A DNA stretch of 44,442 bases, taken from NCBI GenBank assembly GCA_030263375.1, contig SZOV01000015.1, positions 1 through 44,442 on the forward strand, written 5' to 3'. Numbering within the stretch: the first letter of the stretch is position 1; each line of letters opens with the position of its first letter. Under the pieces are notes generated by a model. That model was given only the letters and a program-made list of their open reading frames with translations, made no database searches and was not told where the DNA came from. This stretch comes from Deltaproteobacteria bacterium PRO3 (lineage in GTDB: Bacteria; UBA10199; DSSB01). Made by a program: the position numbers and the translations under genes. Positions 4,935 to 43,248 of the stretch are shown here, piece by piece.

Positions 4935-6320
4935 ATGCCGAAGGATTTTGTCTTTCCGGATCTTGGAGAAGGCGTCGCCGAGGGCGAGCTGGTCAAATGG
5001 CTCGTCAAGGAGGGCGACTCCGTGAAGGAAGACCAGGACGTCGCCGAGGTCGAGACCGACAAGGCCCTGGTCTCCATCCCCTCCCCCCACGCGGGGGTCG
5101 TTGAGAAGCTACATTTCAAGGAGGGGGACAAGATCCCGGTGGGCGCGGTGCTGATGAGTTTCCGGGACGGGCCCGCGGCCGCCGCGCCCGAGGCCAAAAA
5201 AGGCCCGGAGCCCAAGCCTGAACCAAAACCCGAGGGGATTCCAGACAAGGCGATCGTCAAGTCCTCGCCGCCTCCCGCGGGGGAGGCAAAGTCCGCCGCC
5301 TCAGGCCCGGCCGCCTCGAAATCGGCGCCCACCGCACCCGAAACCAGGCCCGCCGAGGACGCTTCTACTCCCGCGTCGCCCAAGCTGCCCGTCCTCGCCA
5401 CCCCCTTCACGCGAAAACTGGCCCGCGAGCTGGGCGTCGACATCGAGCAAGTCCGCGGCAGCGGCGAGAACGGCCGGGTGACCGAAGAGGACGTGCGGCG
5501 CGCCGCCGCGCCGGGCGCGCCCGCCGCCAAGCCGAGCCCCCTCCCCGCCGCCAAAGCGGCCCCCGCGCCGGCACCATCGGCCGCTCCGGAGACGGCCGCG
5601 GCAGATTTCGAAAAATACGGCCCCGTCCAGCGCATCCCGATCAAAGGGATCCGCCGAAAGATCAGCGAGCACATGCTGACCGCAGCCCATCAAACCGTCA
5701 TGGTTACCCACATCGACGAGGCCGAGGTCGACGCCTTGATGCAACTGCGCCAAGAGAAGAAAAAATACGCCGAGGAGCGCGGCGTCAAGCTGACGCTGCT
5801 CCCTTTCCTGATGAAGGCCTGCGTGATAGCGCTGAAAAACTACCCCTACCTCAACGCCAGTCTGAGCGGCGACGAGATCGTCTTGAAGGATTACTTTCAC
5901 TTCGGCTTCGCGGTCGATACCGACGCGGGCCTGATGGTGCCGGTGATCCGCGACGTCGACCAGAAGAGCATCATGCGCCTGGCCACCGAGCTTGTCGACT
6001 TGAGCGAGCAGGCCCGCAAGCGCAGCATCCCGCTGGAGGCCCTGAAGGGACACAGCTTCTCGATCACGAATATCGGCAGCATCGGCGGCCGGGCCTTCAC
6101 GCCCATCCTGCACTATCCGGATTCGGCCATTCTGGGCCTGGGAAGGACTTACCAAAAGCCGGTGGTGCGGGGCGGGGAAATCAAGGTCTCCAGCGTCCTG
6201 CCGCTCTGCCTGACCTTCGACCACCGAGTCACCGACGGGGCGACGGCGGCGCGGTTCACCAACGAGGTGATCAAGTATTTGAGCGATCCGGATTTGTTGC
6301 TTCTGGATGATGGGGATTGA
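4935..6320 (+). CDS. pdhC: Dihydrolipoamide acyltransferase, E2 core of the 2-oxoacid dehydrogenase complex
   Basis: 461 aa. One lipoyl domain covers residues 1-78, with the lipoylated Lys43 in the motif ETDKAL. An Ala/Pro/Lys linker follows (80-150). The peripheral-subunit-binding domain is at about 156-190 (PFTRKLARELGVDIEQVRGS). A second Ala/Pro linker leads to the catalytic trimer domain (235-461), ending with the active-site DHRVTDG, His430. It accepts the acyl group from E1 and passes it to CoA, forming the structural core. The start follows SD GAGGTG. There is a single lipoyl domain, as in Gram-positive PDH and most BCKDH E2 proteins. Which 2-oxoacid is used cannot be decided from sequence alone. 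Confidence 0.92.
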   Translation: MPKDFVFPDLGEGVAEGELVKWLVKEGDSVKEDQDVAEVETDKALVSIPSPHAGVVEKLHFKEGDKIPVGAVLMSFRDGPAAAAPEAKKGPEPKPEPKPEGIPDKAIVKSSPPPAGEAKSAASGPAASKSAPTAPETRPAEDASTPASPKLPVLATPFTRKLARELGVDIEQVRGSGENGRVTEEDVRRAAAPGAPAAKPSPLPAAKAAPAPAPSAAPETAAADFEKYGPVQRIPIKGIRRKISEHMLTAAHQTVMVTHIDEAEVDALMQLRQEKKKYAEERGVKLTLLPFLMKACVIALKNYPYLNASLSGDEIVLKDYFHFGFAVDTDAGLMVPVIRDVDQKSIMRLATELVDLSEQARKRSIPLEALKGHSFSITNIGSIGGRAFTPILHYPDSAILGLGRTYQKPVVRGGEIKVSSVLPLCLTFDHRVTDGATAARFTNEVIKYLSDPDLLLLDDGD

Positions 6321-6337
6321 GGGGGAGCGCCGAATCC

Positions 6338-6384
6338 GTAGGGGCCGTTCGCGCTTGTCCTCCGGAGGAGGGAACGGCCCCTAC
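6338..6384. repeat. Palindromic intergenic element between E2 and E3 genes
   Basis: GTAGGGGCCGTTC (6338-6350) and GAACGGCCCCTAC (6372-6384) form a perfect 13-bp inverted repeat. The 21-nt loop itself contains the 12-bp palindrome TCCTCCGGAGGA (6357-6368). There is no T-run, so it is not a classical terminator. Elements beginning GTAGGGGC and ending GCCCCTAC are common dispersed repeats in many bacterial genomes. This one may be a REP-like copy or an mRNA processing/attenuation hairpin; copy number cannot be seen in this window. Confidence 0.6.
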
Positions 6385-6415
6385 AGCAGGGACTTTGCGC
6401 AAAGGATTTTTTTCT

Positions 6416-7843
6416 ATGGTTGTCGGTGACTTAACCGAATCCACCGAAGTCGCCGTCCTCGGCGGCGGACCGGGCGGCTATGTCGCCGCGATCCGTCTCG
6501 CCCAGCTGGGCAAGGAAGTGACCCTCATCAATGACGACGTCCTGCCCGGCGGCGTCTGCCTGCTGCGCGGCTGCATCCCCTCCAAGGCGCTCATCGAGGC
6601 CGGAAACCTCCTGCACCGCATCCCGGCCGCGGCCGCCATGGGCGTCCTGGCCGACAACCCGCGCGTCGATTGGCCTGTGCTGCAAAAGTGGAAGGATTCC
6701 GTCGTCCAGAGGCTCGGCCGCGGCGTCGAGCAACTGCTCAAACAGCACAAGGTCAAGACCCTGGCGGGCCGTGGCGTCTTCGTGGGCTCCCACAGTCTCG
6801 AGATCCGAACCGAGTCCGGACCGCGGCATCTCGCCTTCGAGCAGGCCGTCGTCGCCACCGGGAGCCGGCCGCGCCCGCTGCCCGACCTACCCTTCGACGG
6901 CGAAAAAATCATCTCCTCGGATCAGGCCCTCGCGCTCCCGGAAATCCCCCCTTCCCTCCTGGTCGTTGGCGGAGGTTACATCGGCCTGGAGCTGGGCGAG
7001 GTCTACGCCAAACTGGGAAGCCGGGTGACGGTCCTCGAGGCCCTGCCGGAATTGCTCTCCGGTACCGACCCCGCCTTGGTCCGGCCCGTGAAGAAGAAAT
7101 TGGAGTCTCTGGGCGTGCAAATCCTGCTTAAGACGCAGGCAAAAAAAATCAATCCGAGCGACCGCGAGGTGGAGGTGGAATGGGCCTCGGAAGACGGGGC
7201 CGCTGGCCGGATCGCCGCGAGTCGCGTCCTCGTCGCGATCGGCCGCCTGCCGAACAGCGAGGGATTGGGCCTGGAGGCGCTCGGCATCGCACGGGATGCC
7301 AAGGGCTTCGTCAAGGCGGACGCGCAGCAGCGGACTTCCCTCGGGCACATTTACGCCATCGGCGACGTCGCCGGAGGCATTCAGCTGGCGCACAAGGCCA
7401 GCCGCGAGGGCATCGTCGCGGCCCACAACATCGCCGGCGAGGCCGACGCCTTCGACAACCAGGTGCCGGCGGTGATCTTCACCGATCCCGAGATCGCCTA
7501 CGTCGGCCTGAGCGAGGCACAGGCCAAGGAACGCGGCATCGAGACCGCGACGGGGATGTTCGGCTTCCCCGCCAACGGCCGCGCCCTGACGCTGGACGAC
7601 GCGGAGGGCTTCGTCAAGGTCGTGGCCGAAAAATCCTCGAACCGCATCCTGGGCGTCCAAATGGTCGGCCCCCACGTCTCCGAGTTGATCTCGGAGGCAA
7701 CCCTGGGGCTGGAGATGGGCGCCTTCGTCGCGGATTTGGACCTCACCATCCACCCCCACCCCACCCTGAGCGAGGCCTTGCACGAGGCCGCGGAGGGGGT
7801 GCTGGGGATGGCGATTCACCGGTACCAGAAAAAGCCCCGCTGA
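6416..7843 (+). CDS. lpdA: Dihydrolipoyl dehydrogenase (E3)
   Basis: 475 aa from the chosen ATG. AAGGA (6402-6406) lies 9 nt upstream, and an earlier in-frame ATG at 6317 would translate the palindromic element. The FAD motif is GGGPGGYVAAIRLAQLGKEV. The redox disulfide is in GGVCLLRGCIPSKA (two Cys five apart). The NAD motif is VVGGGYIGLELGEVYAKLGS, and a second FAD contact is IYAIGDVAG. The dimer-interface catalytic HPHPTLSEALHEA is at the C-terminus. It reoxidises dihydrolipoamide of E2 with NAD+. It is last in the dehydrogenase operon and could also serve other lipoyl complexes. No terminator is obvious downstream. Confidence 0.95.
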   Translation: MVVGDLTESTEVAVLGGGPGGYVAAIRLAQLGKEVTLINDDVLPGGVCLLRGCIPSKALIEAGNLLHRIPAAAAMGVLADNPRVDWPVLQKWKDSVVQRLGRGVEQLLKQHKVKTLAGRGVFVGSHSLEIRTESGPRHLAFEQAVVATGSRPRPLPDLPFDGEKIISSDQALALPEIPPSLLVVGGGYIGLELGEVYAKLGSRVTVLEALPELLSGTDPALVRPVKKKLESLGVQILLKTQAKKINPSDREVEVEWASEDGAAGRIAASRVLVAIGRLPNSEGLGLEALGIARDAKGFVKADAQQRTSLGHIYAIGDVAGGIQLAHKASREGIVAAHNIAGEADAFDNQVPAVIFTDPEIAYVGLSEAQAKERGIETATGMFGFPANGRALTLDDAEGFVKVVAEKSSNRILGVQMVGPHVSELISEATLGLEMGAFVADLDLTIHPHPTLSEALHEAAEGVLGMAIHRYQKKPR

Positions 7844-7929: not shown

Positions 7930-8070
7930 GAATTCTCAATCATGGTCATCGTTATTTTTTTCAAGTATTTGAATTTCAATAATAATATCAATATCATAAA
8001 CAAGTAAAATATTTGTATATACAAATTACATACTGCTTATTTACAAAAATAGTAGCAAAGACTATGCTCC
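7930..8070 (+). promoter_or_regulatory. AT-rich control region with 16-bp palindrome and promoter of the putative TA module
   Basis: Bases 7981-8040 are 83% A+T (10 G/C of 60) in a GC-rich genome. ATTTGTATATACAAAT (8011-8026) is a perfect 16-bp palindrome, the kind of site a ribbon-helix-helix dimer binds. TTTACA (8040-8045) and TATGCT (8063-8068) are 17 bp apart, placing transcription start close to the ATG at 8075. No SD is visible, so the transcript may be leaderless. The palindrome and spacing are seen directly; operator function is inferred. The part 7844-7929 shows nothing recognisable. Confidence 0.5.
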
Positions 8071-8074
8071 ACTC

Positions 8075-8545
8075 ATGAAAACCAATCCCTTCCGGGACAT
8101 GTTCCAGGAAATTTGCGGGAAGCTTGACGCCTTCATCGCCGACTACAACTCCCGTCTTTTGGAAGAAGGCGGACTTAGAATATCCCGGCAGGAGATTAAG
8201 GTCGTGGGGCAAGCGGCTTTGCTGCTGGCGGACTTGCCCTTTGCCGTCTCCGGCACCATGGACTTCGATATCTGGAATCCACTGCCCTACCTCGTACAGA
8301 AGAAATTGGACGCCTTGTTGTTCGAAAATAAAATGTACCTGGATCCGGACGGACCGAAGGCCTGGATGCCTCCCGATACGAAATTCCAACTCCTGTTCGA
8401 CTTCCCGAAGCTGCAAGTATGGGTTGCGGATCCGGAATCGGTGATCGCCTCGAAAGCGAAATTCAATCGCGCCAAAGACCGGCCCCTCATCGAAACCTAC
8501 CTCCGATTTTATCCGCAATCGAAAGGAAGGGTCGTCGGAAGATGA
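8075..8545 (+). CDS. Nucleotidyltransferase-fold protein (DUF6036/AbiEii-like), putative toxin
   Basis: 156 aa. I recognise a pattern, not a named family. VVGQAALLL (43-51) corresponds to the glycine motif of minimal nucleotidyltransferases, which is usually GG; here the second Gly is Gln46. It is followed by MDFDIW (62-67) with the Asp63-x-Asp65 metal pair, a possible third acid at Asp109, and the distal VADPESVIASKAKF and RAKDRPLIETYL (residues 117-143), typical of AbiEii/DUF6036-like NTases. The gene is lower in GC (a sampled line is 55%) than its neighbours and sits behind an AT-rich leader. Its stop overlaps the next start as ATGA. With the RHH-bearing partner it suggests a toxin-antitoxin pair, NTase first. 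The catalytic state is uncertain because of the G-to-Q change. Confidence 0.6.
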   Translation: MKTNPFRDMFQEICGKLDAFIADYNSRLLEEGGLRISRQEIKVVGQAALLLADLPFAVSGTMDFDIWNPLPYLVQKKLDALLFENKMYLDPDGPKAWMPPDTKFQLLFDFPKLQVWVADPESVIASKAKFNRAKDRPLIETYLRFYPQSKGRVVGR

Positions 8546-9018
8546 ACGCGAATACGGAAAAGGTCGTGCAAAGGCTCGCCTACGAAGGATTATTGACCTC
8601 CAACACGGTGCTGCCCCGGAAACGACGCATCACCGTCCAAGAGGCCTTGGCCGCGGCTGAAGAAGAGCCGAGAATTTTGGAAGTCCTGCCCGCGGTGCTG
8701 CTCTACAAACCCTCGATCTTGGCCGGCCTTGAGAAAGACTTGAAAAAGGACCGGAAATTGGCTCGGCTAGTCGAGAATTTACGTCTCGGGACGAATCCGG
8801 AAATGGATTTCTTCGGCATCCCCGCGCGGGACTATCTCAAGGCCGCGGAGCATTTTCGGCGCTGCCTTTCCGAAAAAAAAGCCGCCCAGAAGTCCATGGT
8901 CTTGAACCTGAGAGTCTCTCCCGAGGAGCTTAAAAAAATAAAACGCCTCAGCGAAGCCATGGGCGGCATCGGGCTTTCGGAGACCATCCGGACTCTCATC
9001 CACGAAAAAGCCTTGTGA
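8542..9018 (+). CDS. Ribbon-helix-helix-tailed partner protein, putative antitoxin
   Basis: 158 aa from the ATG that overlaps the preceding stop (ATGA). The start is supported by this coupling and by SD GGAAG just upstream. Residues about 30-75 (VQEALAAAEEEPRILEVLPA) form a helical domain seen, to my knowledge, in small proteins paired with NTase-like genes. Residues 118-158 read as a ribbon-helix-helix DNA-binding fold: beta strand SMVLNLRVSP, helix EELKKIKRLSEAMG, helix LSETIRTLIHEKA. I infer that it neutralises the NTase and represses the pair through the upstream palindrome. A stem-loop (9034-9040 with 9059-9065) lies downstream, shared with the convergent leuA end. The roles are inference from arrangement. 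Confidence 0.6.
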   Translation: MNANTEKVVQRLAYEGLLTSNTVLPRKRRITVQEALAAAEEEPRILEVLPAVLLYKPSILAGLEKDLKKDRKLARLVENLRLGTNPEMDFFGIPARDYLKAAEHFRRCLSEKKAAQKSMVLNLRVSPEELKKIKRLSEAMGGIGLSETIRTLIHEKAL

Positions 9019-9088: not shown

Positions 9089-10612
9089 TCATATCCCCTC
9101 CCGCTTCGCCTTGAAGTGCTCGAAGCGGTTCAAGGCGTTGAGGTAGGCCTTGAGCGAGGCCTTGACGATGTCGGTGTCGGTGCCGAGCCCTCGCACCTCG
9201 CGGCCGTCGTCCTTCAAGACCACGCTCACCTCGCCCTGCGCGTCCGCGCCCCCGGTGATCGCATTGATGTTGAAGCCGGAGAGCTCGCCGGCGAAGCCGG
9301 TCACCTTGCGCAAGACCTTGAAGCTGGCGTCCACCGGGCCCACGCCCTTCTCGGAGTCGGTCTTTTCGACGCCGTCGACCGCCACCGTCACCTCGGCCCG
9401 CGGCGAGCCGTCGGATTCGCTGGTCACGCTGTAGCGCTTCAATACGTAGCGCTCCTGCCCCCCGTGCTTCTGCTCGAAGAGGATCACCTCGAGGTCGTCG
9501 TCGAAGATCTCTTTCTTCTTGTCCGCCAAGGCCTTGAAGGCCTCGAAGGCCTTTTCGAAGTCGGCCTCCTCGAGTTCGTAGCCCAATTCCTGGAGGCGTT
9601 TGCGGAAGGCGTGGCGCCCGGAGTGCTTGCCCAGGACCAACTTCGACTGCGTCCAGCCCACCGACTCGGGCGTCATGATCTCGTAGGTGAGCTGGTTCTT
9701 GAGGAAGCCGTCCTGGTGGATCCCCGACTCGTGGGCGAAGGCGTTCTCGCCGACCACCGCCTTGTTGGGTTGGACCTGCACCCCGGTGATCAAGCTGAGG
9801 AGCTTGCTGGTGTGGTAGATCTGCTCGGTGCGAATCGCGGTGTCGCACTGAAAGAGCTCTTTGCGCACCTTGAGGGTCATGACGATCTCTTCCATTGCCG
9901 CGTTGCCCGCCCGCTCGCCGATGCCGTTGACGGTGCACTCCACCTGCCTCGCGCCCGCCCGGATCGCGGCCAGGCTGTTGGCGACCGCGAGGCCCAAGTC
10001 GTTGTGGCAATGCACGCTGATCACGGCCTGCCCGATGTTGAGGACCTTTTGTCTCAAGTGGGTGATGAGGTTGTAGAACTCCTCCGGATAGGTATAACCC
10101 ACTGTGTCGGGGATGTTGACCGTCTTGGCCCCCGCCTCGATGACCGCCTGCACGACCTCCGACAAGTAGCCCCAGTCGCTGCGGGTGGCGTCCTCGGCGC
10201 TGAACTCGACGTCGGGTGTGTATTGCAAGGCGTGCTTCACCGCCGCGACGGCGTCCTGCAAGACCTGCTCGCGGCTCTTTCCCAACTTGTACTTGAGATG
10301 GAGGTCGCTCGTCGCGATGAAGGTGTGGATGCGCGGCTTCCGGGCCTCGCGGATCGCGCCCCAGCAGGCGTCGATGTCCTTGGGCGTCGCGCGGCTGAGC
10401 CCCGCGATCGCCGGCCCCTCGATCTCGCGGGCGATGGCCTCCACCGCCGCAAAGTCGCCCTTGGAGGCGATGGGAAAGCCCGCCTCGATGATGTCCACGC
10501 CCAGCTTGGCGAGCTGCCGGGCCATGCGGAGCTTTTCGTCCAAGTCCATGCTGCAGCCGGGCGATTGCTCGCCGTCGCGGAGCGTCGTGTCGAATACCTT
10601 GACCATTTCCAT
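9089..10612 (-). CDS. leuA: 2-isopropylmalate synthase
   Basis: 507 aa, normal for the long (LeuA type 1) enzyme. It condenses acetyl-CoA with 3-methyl-2-oxobutanoate, the first committed step of leucine synthesis. [18 protein letters not shown] is near the N-terminus with the metal-binding Asp. [22 protein letters not shown] carries the HxH/N metal ligands. [13 protein letters not shown] lies in the catalytic subdomain, and the C-terminal LeuA_dimer regulatory domain (about 370-507) binds leucine for feedback control. The ATG at 10612 is chosen because GAGG lies 7 nt upstream; an in-frame TTG at 10636 lacks this. It is downstream of ilvB-ilvN-psd-pssA but separated from pssA by 259 bp. Confidence 0.95.
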
Positions 10613-10708
10613 AAAAAAACCTCGATCGTTCGTCAAAAGACGGTTGTTGTCAGTATGCCGTCAAGACTCCCGGGGAGTCCAGTTTTCGCTGCCATCTGCT
10701 ATTCGGCG

Positions 10709-39436: not shown

Positions 39437-39476
39437 CCATGGGCTCGGGTGCGTGTATTAGGGGACACACCCATGG
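39437..39476 (+). promoter_or_regulatory. Start-codon-masking RNA hairpins before the first paralogue
   Basis: GGGTGCGTGT (39447-39456) can pair with ACACACCC (39465-39472), leaving the SD AGGGG in the 8-nt loop and ending at the ATG (39473). Alternatively CCATGGG (39437-39443) pairs with CCCATGG (39470-39476) and buries the start codon itself. The two folds compete. The complementarity is seen directly; translational control is inferred. Confidence 0.4.
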
Positions 39477-41209
39477 GCGATCCAATCTACGAACGTTTCC
39501 GCTTGCCCGGAATCTCCGTGCAGGAATGCCTGCAGGAGCCCTCCGATCCCAAGAAAGATCCGTGTAAAGTCGAGGCCCGCGAGGCCGAGACGAAGCTGAG
39601 CTTCGTCCTGGAGCGCCGCGAGGGCAAATTTCAGGTCGCTTCCGGCGATGCCGCGAGCGTGACTAAGGCCTTCCCCTCCTTCAAGCCGCCCGCGCGCGAG
39701 ATCGCCGAGTACCTGACGGTCCGCGGCGAGTTCTTCAAGACCCTGGGCGACGAGCAGAAGCCCTTGGAGATCACCAAGCAATTCAAGTTCAAGCACCTGT
39801 TGGGCGAGGGCCAGACCGTGGAGGCCGCGATCGAGAGCTGGGTCAACGTCGTCGCGAGCTTCGTCTCGCACGGCCAGATGGAGCCGAAGGCCGCGAAGGC
39901 GAAGGAATTCCAAGAAGAGGCGGTCATGGTCGCCACCTATTTCTCGGTCGATCCGACGCTTCGCGCCCTCGCCGTGAAGACCCTTCAGGGTCTCAAGGGC
40001 AACGAGAAGCTGGGCGCCGAGAGCCGCAAGCGCGTCGAGTGGCTCTTGGTCGTGCTCTCGGTGCAGGAAGCGATGCTGGCGCATTTCAAGCCGACCATGG
40101 ACAAGTCGCAGGCGATCAGCGACGAGCTGCGGGCGCGCAGCAGCGGACTGATCCAGTTCCTGTTCTGCAACCACATCCTGGCCGACAAGGGGACCAACGA
40201 CAAGCTCGCCACGCCGTCGGTCCAGGGCAGCGCGAAGGTCTTTCACGACGTCTTGTCCAAGGTCGACCCCCACTATAATGCCGCGAAGAATTATTACGCC
40301 TACATCGCCTCCGCGATGAAGGCCTTGAAGGACACCGAGGTCCCCACCGCCTACCTCAAGGACTTCCGCACCCGCGCCAATTTCATCCAATCGGAGTACG
40401 AAAAGAAGGGCCGCGAGGAGATGCTGAGCCTCCTGGCCGGGCAGGAGGCCGAGAAGTCGCTTCGGGAATATTTGATCATCAAGTACGGCGACACGCCCGC
40501 CAAGGCGATGGTGATGGAGACCTTCCTGAAGCACATGAAGGTGAAGGTTGCCAAGGGCAAGCCCCATTTCGAGTTCAACATGGAGAAGGCCGCCAAGGAG
40601 ATCCAGGACGACCACGCCGCCCTCCCCCTCGAGATGAAGGCCCGCGCCTCGGTCGCCCTGCTGGACGTCCTGCAAGGGCTCTTCGAGAAGAGCGGCAAGA
40701 TGGAGATATTCTGGGACAAGAAGCTTCAGGAGACGGACAACTTTTACTCAAGCTTTCCGCTGATGGGCGCCAACAAAAACGCCCTGGAGAAGCTGATCCT
40801 CTGGGCGCGCGGCGAGGCGAAGGACGCGAAGGATCCCCTCGCCCCGCAAAAGATCCCGCATGTCGCCGTCCGCAAATGGACCCTGCTGACCGAGCTGGGC
40901 ATCGGCGTCGCAGGCACCGCGACGGCGCTGTCCCTGTTGGCCGTCGACGAGAGCGAGGAGCGCTGGTGGGGCCAGGGCGCGGCGACGATCACGGCCGGGG
41001 CCGGCTTCGGCGCGGCGGCGGGCAACGCCCTCTCTTACGCCCTCGACATCGACCAGGGCGATTGGGCCTTCGACTTGGGGGGCTCCCTCATCGGCGGACT
41101 GGCGGCGGGCCTGACCTACGGTTTCTTGGTGCCGAAGCCCGGCGGCGGCCAGCTACCCCCGCAGCCCGATCCCGGACGCCGTTACCCGGTCGATCCCTAC
41201 GGGCCCTAA
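39473..41209 (+). CDS. Unrecognised family protein, first of two tandem paralogues (glycine-zipper membrane C-terminus)
   Basis: 578 aa; no family recognised. No signal peptide. Residues 1-460 are predicted mainly helical and charged, with conserved blocks shared with the next gene: DPCK near residue 25, SHGQMEPK, ESRKRVEWLL, KPTMDKSQ, DPHYNAAKNYYAYI, REYLIIKYGDTPA, LFEKSGKMEIFWDKKLQ and TDNFY. Three hydrophobic, Gly-rich segments follow (about 471-491, 503-525, 534-553), the last with a glycine zipper (GGSLIGGLAAG). The protein ends in the motif DPGRRYPVDPYGP. The ATG at 39473 matches the paralogue's beginning and follows an AGGGG SD. A large soluble domain plus a membrane-inserting tail could mean a membrane-anchored scaffold or a pore-type effector; this is a guess. 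Confidence 0.8.
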   Translation: MGDPIYERFRLPGISVQECLQEPSDPKKDPCKVEAREAETKLSFVLERREGKFQVASGDAASVTKAFPSFKPPAREIAEYLTVRGEFFKTLGDEQKPLEITKQFKFKHLLGEGQTVEAAIESWVNVVASFVSHGQMEPKAAKAKEFQEEAVMVATYFSVDPTLRALAVKTLQGLKGNEKLGAESRKRVEWLLVVLSVQEAMLAHFKPTMDKSQAISDELRARSSGLIQFLFCNHILADKGTNDKLATPSVQGSAKVFHDVLSKVDPHYNAAKNYYAYIASAMKALKDTEVPTAYLKDFRTRANFIQSEYEKKGREEMLSLLAGQEAEKSLREYLIIKYGDTPAKAMVMETFLKHMKVKVAKGKPHFEFNMEKAAKEIQDDHAALPLEMKARASVALLDVLQGLFEKSGKMEIFWDKKLQETDNFYSSFPLMGANKNALEKLILWARGEAKDAKDPLAPQKIPHVAVRKWTLLTELGIGVAGTATALSLLAVDESEERWWGQGAATITAGAGFGAAAGNALSYALDIDQGDWAFDLGGSLIGGLAAGLTYGFLVPKPGGGQLPPQPDPGRRYPVDPYGP

Positions 41210-41490: not shown

Positions 41491-43248
41491 ATGAGCGATC
41501 CAGCCACCAAGCTACCCACTTACAATATTTTTGAAATCCGCAGCACGACCGCGGAATGTCTCGAGGCCCCGGCCGACCCCGCGAAGGATCCTTGCAAGAT
41601 CCAGGCGGAAGAAGTGGAGAGCGGGCTCAGCATCTCGCTGGAGCGCAAGAACGGGACATTCCAGCCGGCCTCCGCCGATGCCGCCAAGCTGCTCAAGGTA
41701 TATCCGAACTTCCGCGCCCCCGCCGCCGAACTGGCGGAATACTTGGCGGTCAAGGCGGAGTTCTCCAAGGTCTTCGGCGACGAGCAGAATCCCTCCGACA
41801 TCTTCAAAAAGATCAGCATCGTCTTCGAGGGCAAGGAAGTCCCCGACAAAAATCGGGCGATCTTCAATTGGTTCAACATCACCACCAACTTCATCTCGCA
41901 CGGCCAGCTGGAGCCGAAGCACGCCAAGATGAAGAGCCTGCAGGAGACCACGATCAAGGTCGGAGCCTTCGCCTTCGCCGATCCGGTCTTGGGGACGATG
42001 GTCGAGAAGGTCCTGAAGGGGCTCAAGGACAACAGCAAGCTGTCCTCGGAGAGCCGAAAGCGGGTCGAGTGGCTGCTGGGCATCTACGCGACGCGCGAAA
42101 AATTTTGGGCGGCGATGAAGCCGGCGATGGACAAGTCGCAGAGCGTCAGCGACCAGCTGAAGCCGCGCAGCGTCGACTTGCTGATCGTCCTCTTCGCCAA
42201 CCACGTCCTGGCGGAGAAGGGTTATGCGAGCTATCTTTATTCCGACGAGGTCAAGGGCGCGGCGAAGGTCTACCACGACATCTTTTCCAAGATCGATCCC
42301 AACTACAACGCCGCGAAGAACTATTACGCCTTCATGAGGGACTCGGTCTCCAGCCTGCGGAGCGTGGACCTCCCCGAGGCGGCGAAGAAAGAGCTGCTGC
42401 TGCGCATCGCCTTCCTCGAAAACGAATACGGCAAGGCGGCCCAAAAGGAGATGACGGATCTCCTCTCGGCCCAACCCGCCGAGTCCGCCTTCCGCGAGTA
42501 CCTCGAGATCAAGTACGGCGACACGCCGGCCCGCGCCGGCGCCCTGAAGATCATCCTCGCCGGCCTGACCTTCAAGTCCGGCGAGGAAGGCACCGGACAT
42601 TCCTTCGCGATGGAGAAGATCTCCCGCGAGCTGCACCTGTGGGTCGACGGCAAGGCCGGGGACCAGCGCAAGGAGGCCCTGGAGGCGATCAATCACCTCT
42701 TGAAGGCCCTCTTCGAGAAGGACGGCAAGATCGAGGTCTTTTGGGACAAGCAGGTCCAGACGACCGACAACTTCTACAAGACGGGCAATTTCTCGATCCT
42801 GAGCAACAACAAGAAGGCCTTGGAGGATCTGATCGTCTGGGCGCGTAATGCCGCCACCGAGGAGAAGCTGAAGCTGTCCCCGGATAACACGCCGCACGTC
42901 GCCCTGCGCAAATGGACCTTGGGCACCGAGCTCGGGATCGGCGTGGCGGGGCTGGGCGTCGGCACCGCCTTGGCCTTCGCGCCCATCAAGGACCAGAACG
43001 GTCAATACTTCACGCAAGGAAGCTCGATCATCTTGGGCTCCTCGGCCCTCGGCGCGGCGGGAGGGAATCTCCTGTCCTACAAGCTCAACGTCACCAAGAA
43101 CGCCTGGCTCTTCGACGCCGGCGGCGCCTTGGTCGGCGGTCTGCTGGGCGGGCTGATCTACGGCCTGGTCACCCCGCCGCCTCCGGCCTTCGGCGGCGGA
43201 AAGACCGATCCCGGTCAGAGGTTCCCGGTCGACGGCTACGGGCCTTGA
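41491..43248 (+). CDS. Unrecognised family protein, second of two tandem paralogues (glycine-zipper membrane C-terminus)
   Basis: 585 aa, about half identical by eye to the preceding protein along its whole length. Shared blocks include DPCKIQAEEVESGLSISLER, FISHGQLEPKHAKMKSLQE, ESRKRVEWLLGIYA, KPAMDKSQSVSDQLKPRS, DPNYNAAKNYYAFM, REYLEIKYGDTPARAGALK and FWDKQVQTTDNFYKTGN. The C-terminus has three Gly-rich hydrophobic segments (about 478-498, 511-530, 539-560; GGALVGGLLGGLIYG) and ends DPGQRFPVDGYGP. There is no signal peptide. The two copies have diverged while keeping membrane tail and terminal motif, which argues that both are functional. A 281-bp structured spacer precedes it. Function unknown. 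Confidence 0.8.
   Translation: MSDPATKLPTYNIFEIRSTTAECLEAPADPAKDPCKIQAEEVESGLSISLERKNGTFQPASADAAKLLKVYPNFRAPAAELAEYLAVKAEFSKVFGDEQNPSDIFKKISIVFEGKEVPDKNRAIFNWFNITTNFISHGQLEPKHAKMKSLQETTIKVGAFAFADPVLGTMVEKVLKGLKDNSKLSSESRKRVEWLLGIYATREKFWAAMKPAMDKSQSVSDQLKPRSVDLLIVLFANHVLAEKGYASYLYSDEVKGAAKVYHDIFSKIDPNYNAAKNYYAFMRDSVSSLRSVDLPEAAKKELLLRIAFLENEYGKAAQKEMTDLLSAQPAESAFREYLEIKYGDTPARAGALKIILAGLTFKSGEEGTGHSFAMEKISRELHLWVDGKAGDQRKEALEAINHLLKALFEKDGKIEVFWDKQVQTTDNFYKTGNFSILSNNKKALEDLIVWARNAATEEKLKLSPDNTPHVALRKWTLGTELGIGVAGLGVGTALAFAPIKDQNGQYFTQGSSIILGSSALGAAGGNLLSYKLNVTKNAWLFDAGGALVGGLLGGLIYGLVTPPPPAFGGGKTDPGQRFPVDGYGP

Follow-up and report, generated by a model that had tools for sequence, protein, structure and literature searches.

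A pair of overlapping genes in the 44,442-nucleotide stretch of DNA analyzed here (the window; contig SZOV01000015.1 of Deltaproteobacteria bacterium PRO3) probably forms an autoregulated toxin-antitoxin (TA) operon, in which a nucleotidyltransferase (NTase) toxin is encoded first and a ribbon-helix-helix (RHH) antitoxin second. We assign this reading, which is drawn from sequence comparison, a probability of roughly 0.7. We also give somewhat better than even odds to the pair representing a distinct family of NTase TA systems, largely found in one candidate phylum, that combines a GQ active-site motif in the NTase with an RHH protein carrying a new helical neutralizing domain and that exists as locus-specific allelic cassettes exchanged among relatives. 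The original prediction of a candidate TA system is upheld: the model of the first protein has an NTase-type topology, an RHH domain in the second is supported, and the pair is patchy in its distribution.

The first gene (8075–8545, forward strand) encodes the putative toxin, a diverged NTase of 156 aa. The second (8542–9018, forward strand) encodes the putative antitoxin and autorepressor, an RHH partner of 158 aa. The two genes overlap by an ATGA stop/start (8542–8545, forward strand), as first described, and translational coupling through this overlap is probable. Neither ORF arises by chance because the survey of homologue neighborhoods found homologous pairs in the same order, with 39–50% protein identity, at five other loci. 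The AT-rich leader (7935–8074, forward strand) is the probable promoter/operator region and holds a perfect 16-bp palindrome, ATTTGTATATACAAAT (8011–8026, no strand assigned), an RHH operator candidate recognized from sequence only. On the left, lpd (dihydrolipoamide dehydrogenase; 6317–7843, forward strand) closes a pyruvate dehydrogenase operon, and on the right leuA (2-isopropylmalate synthase; 9089–10636, reverse strand) is convergent with the pair. The GC content of the pair is 54% compared with 64–67% for lpd and leuA, and the leader is strongly AT-rich, which bears out the low-GC, AT-rich island noted at the outset. The remainder of the window has a core-chromosome appearance (all neighboring genes were named by inspection), and neither a mobile context (phage, plasmid, or other) nor defense-island neighbors were seen within it. 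At the far end of the window, two adjacent long ORFs (586 aa at 39449–41209 and 585 aa at 41491–43248) have similar starts (EPSDPKKDPCKVEA and APADPAKDPCKIQA), and from this resemblance they are likely a tandem duplication.

Assignment of the 156-aa protein to the NTases is well supported by motif and profile comparison. The motifs quoted in the original prediction are all present: VGQAALLL in motif I (G45-Q46), TMDFD in motif II (T61-x-D63-x-D65), and SKAKFNRAKDRPLI in motif III/IV (K127...R132...D135). The Pfam model for DUF6036 (PF19502) matches the protein at 14.5 bits (E = 0.031), below the cut-off of 23.6 bits, and any PF19502 match is found in just two of the seven NTase family members. 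Profile-profile alignment (hhalign) of the NTase family with a profile of 14 DUF6036 proteins from the same phylum gave a score of 33.3 (E = 1.3e-4) with the motifs in register, and this score exceeds those of all 100 column shuffles (null maximum of 20.6). Neither the NTase nor the partner family has a match in NCBIfam or PADLOC, and searching PDB sequences with single sequences and with profiles gave no meaningful match. The AlphaFold2 model of the NTase (pLDDT 92) has an NTase-like order of strands and helices, in which GQ occupies the first turn between strand and helix and DxD is on the strand after it, in agreement with the NTase-like fold proposed initially. Foldseek comparison of this model with the PDB returned matches none of which is significant by itself (best E = 0.27, TM ≤0.39). 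The top of the list consists mostly of nucleotidyltransferases (NF90/NF45, ANT(2'')-Ia, and a terminal uridylyltransferase), with MntA and a minimal nucleotidyltransferase lower down, and a viral fold library gave no match. The fold search of the PDB is only consistent with the NTase assignment.

All seven NTases have G45-Q46, D65, D92, W97, P99, K127, R132, and D135 in common, and D63 is missing in one alone, a solo copy. The exchange of the second motif I glycine for glutamine, already remarked on in the window protein, is invariant in the family (7/7). It does not imply a dead enzyme because AbiEii G50A, altered at the position matching Q46, remains toxic (PMC3985639). The motif I glycine and the first aspartate (G45 to D63) are 18 residues apart, the same spacing as in AbiEii (G49-D67; PMC3985639) and MenT3 (G62-D80; PMC7205606). 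Relative to the AbiEii/DUF1814 motif I/II pattern hG[G/S]...DhD, the window protein has G45, D63, and D65, with Q at the second position. A Ser/Thr two residues ahead of the first aspartate (T61 here) is kept in 7/7 NTases, and the residues at the equivalent place in MenT3 (S78) and MenT1 (T39) are phosphorylated during neutralization (PMC7205606, PMC11375011). The motif II position D-4 is occupied by S59 in the window protein and by Arg in no partner-paired member, and the second Asp of the motif IV +DxxD is missing in all members. The protein was not filed under DUF1814 because this AbiEii motif II Arg and second motif IV Asp are missing.

The second protein was predicted to end in an RHH domain of about 40 residues, and Pfam matches and the structural model both agree. 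RHH_1 matches the C terminus of all six members of the partner alignment at sub-threshold to threshold scores (best E = 0.0002), with a single member passing the cut-off (21.6 bits versus 20.5 bits). The partner model, which is of only moderate confidence (pLDDT 78), places an extended segment and then two helices at the C terminus. The RHH domain covers residues ~119–157 and is preceded by a novel helical domain (residues ~1–115) that has no convincing family match and no PDB sequence match. A common origin of this N-terminal domain with the partners of DUF6036 proteins ('RYDPRL', and 'DSRLLFGMRGWLL' versus 'EEPRIYQVLPAILLYKP') was considered and rejected because the profile scores fall inside the shuffle null, in a comparison whose class III arm is weak and has one of its four rows (L056) out of frame. 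The weakest homologues of the RHH domain are BrnA-like proteins at two loci (L050 and L051). One is the product of a lone BrnA-like RHH gene (L051:1423–1668), which has a GTATATAC site just upstream that resembles the window palindrome. The other belongs to what we take to be a BrnT/BrnA-like pair (L050:1178–1674), with the BrnA-like gene behind a BrnT-like ORF.

With up to two mismatches allowed, the candidate operator matches nowhere else in the window (expected 0). At the six pair loci and at a partner-only locus, similar palindromic sites, with a consensus near GTATWTACAWWGTAWAT, precede the first ORF by 41–64 bp. A leave-one-out matrix recovers the site at −41 to −64 in 7/7 loci with p-values of 0.0005–0.012 against dinucleotide shuffles, and these values are somewhat optimistic because the training sites were chosen by eye. 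The positional agreement of the sites among unrelated loci is the stronger evidence. GTATWTACAWW is missing from nearly all other loci compared. The conserved palindrome would be explained most simply by self-repression of the operon by the RHH partner.

The pair recurs in 6 of the 46 genomes of the phylum, a patchy presence that sets it apart from conserved core genes. NTase relatives are found in 6/46 of these genomes and full partner relatives in 7/46. The NTase gene precedes the RHH partner gene at 6/6 pair loci, which extends to the family the original observation of an order unlike that of AbiE. No relatives of either protein were detected outside the phylum among ~340 genomes around the window's genome and 384 around another center (~720 together). 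A further 391 genomes contained no convincing partner relative and one weak match (G889, L102; E = 9e-5, with an internal stop), and no relatives were found on plasmids, phages, or viral contigs. Pattern scans of the genome collection returned only two members that were already known, recorded as a 'Nitrospira sp.' MAG and a 'Deltaproteobacteria' MAG. Confinement of the pair to one phylum is a provisional conclusion, drawn from genome samples covering a small fraction of known diversity and with a first-look filter that can miss distant relatives. DUF6036 nucleotidyltransferases (loci L052–L101 of related genomes) are much expanded in the phylum, occurring in 36/46 genomes at >100 places with several distinct partner classes and differing gene orders; two of these classes are mutually related by profile comparison (E = 6e-5). 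In one genome (G019), a PIN-domain-like fragment and a DUF6922-like ORF (L002:1–204 and 2081–2545, by inspection) are found close to the pair, and these surroundings suggest a small TA-rich island.

The lpd-leuA junction occurs in four states within the same family. The pair is present in the window genome (G000) and its sister G002, the partner and operator only are present in G004, an empty 78-bp junction is found in G006, and unrelated ORFs occupy the site in G001 and G005. The site downstream of lpd is variable among these relatives (G001 L036, G005 L037, G006 L028). Homology between G000 and G002 breaks at 7833 in lpd and is back at 9095 in leuA, which correspond to the gene ends. LeuA is 98% identical between these two genomes with a dS of 0.12, whereas the NTase and partner are 45–47% identical and their synonymous sites are saturated. 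Because the pair is saturated while the flanking leuA has diverged so little, the cassette was replaced in one lineage, most simply through recombination in the flanks, as these alignments suggest. The idea of a fast-evolving core operon is rejected on the same contrast. The G002 partner is nearer to its counterpart in G004 (70–72%), a more distant genome, than to the one in G000 (46%). Judged by these comparisons, the pair occupies, within its family, a fixed locus that the sister genomes share and at which alleles have been replaced; neither recent insertion nor conservation as core genes describes it. Such replacement of alleles at one fixed site would suit changing phage pressure, and AbiE, a well-studied NTase TA system, confers phage resistance (PMC3985639). 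AbiE-style abortive infection triggered by phage would be an added role for the TA operon, so its likelihood overlaps with that of the TA reading; we consider this role possible but unlikely, given that the pair has no PADLOC match and no defense-island neighbors in the window.

The partner-only genome, G004, is 99% complete and retains the partner and operator with no NTase relative detected. Its partner differs from that of G002 with a dN of 0.25 and a dS of 2.3, and it looks to be under purifying selection in the absence of the NTase, in a comparison that also spans the branch to the paired G002 copy. G029 carries a full pair and, in addition, a solo NTase paralogue (L007:1468–1932), the only unpaired NTase in the set, that has D63 changed to G and a weak operator-like site upstream. 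The NTase-less G004 and the D63G solo copy fit with the NTase being the toxin. The lost aspartate is weak evidence for polarity because the antitoxin of the paired copy in G029 could act on the solo NTase. A self-regulated metabolic or RNA-modifying operon, composed of a benign NTase and its own RHH repressor, would explain the stable position of the pair beside core genes. This is an improbable explanation for a pair that is patchily present, that other genomes of its family lack, that has undergone cassette replacement between close relatives, and in which the NTase has been lost and the partner kept, a pattern of TA systems rather than of a housekeeping enzyme. Still less probable is the reverse, MntA/HepT-like polarity, in which the NTase is an antitoxin that inactivates a partner toxin by adding nucleotides: the genes do overlap, and the small NTases of MNT-HEPN pairs work as nucleotide-adding antitoxins (PMC7641770), but Pfam scans found no HEPN domain in any partner, the partner binds DNA, by its domain type, through an RHH fold of the sort usual in antitoxins, and it persists alone in G004.

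The proposed mechanism of the TA operon starts with a diverged pol-β-fold NTase toxin, related to DUF6036, AbiEii, and MenT, that would move a nucleotide onto a cellular target. By analogy with MenT, the target might be the 3′ ends of tRNA or some other component of translation, a tentative suggestion to which we give clearly less than even odds. The antitoxin gene would be translated second, probably by coupling to the NTase gene. The helical N-terminal domain of the antitoxin would bind or restrain the NTase, and its C-terminal RHH domain would bind the 8011–8026 palindrome to repress the operon. Neutralization through direct binding is the default. Antitoxin-induced autophosphorylation at T61 is also possible by analogy because the Ser/Thr is conserved in 7/7 NTases and occupies the position of the phosphorylated residues MenT1 T39 and MenT3 S78. 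The parts of this scheme that we infer are toxicity, which protein neutralizes the other, binding to the operator, and the target.

The antitoxins known for NTase toxins such as AbiEii and MenT are either winged-HTH proteins or very small. AbiE and MenAT come closest to the window pair but differ from it in gene order, antitoxin fold, and motifs. The likeness consists of an NTase with DxD and the 18-residue glycine-to-aspartate spacing of AbiEii and MenT3, the Ser/Thr that precedes the first Asp by two positions in MenT1 and MenT3, and, as in AbiEi, an antitoxin with a DNA-binding domain and a palindromic operator, here a candidate. In AbiE, the COG5340/COG4861-type regulator gene is first (PMC3985639), whereas the NTase gene is first here. 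The DNA-binding domain of the window antitoxin is RHH, not winged HTH, and the window NTase lacks two AbiEii/DUF1814 residues, the Arg found at D-4 in motif II and the second +DxxD Asp. DUF6036 proteins share the glycine motif, T-x-D-x-D, and K...R..D in register, with the K and last D eight residues apart, but the window NTase falls below the Pfam cut-off and has Q as the second glycine, and no DUF6036 partner type compared resembles its partner. BrnTA and other type II systems with RHH antitoxins share the C-terminal RHH domain and a GTATATAC-type palindrome upstream of the operon; the toxin here is an NTase and not a RelE/BECR-type RNase, and the window partner is ~2-fold longer with a novel N-terminal domain. 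MntA-HepT likewise couples a small NTase to a helical partner, but the partner here is RHH rather than HEPN, and the polarity proposed is the opposite. Within the literature collection searched, full-text searches with the phrases tried did not find the combination of an NTase toxin with an RHH antitoxin, and they found no paper that names DUF6036.

An RHH antitoxin encoded second, if true, would widen the range of antitoxin folds that are matched with NTase toxins. The pair would also offer a test for convergence of unrelated antitoxins on one mode of active-site control, exerted through the Ser/Thr conserved ahead of DxD. Among close relatives, the pair, replaced pair, partner-only, and empty states of the lpd-leuA junction form a compact natural record of the swapping and loss of a TA cassette.
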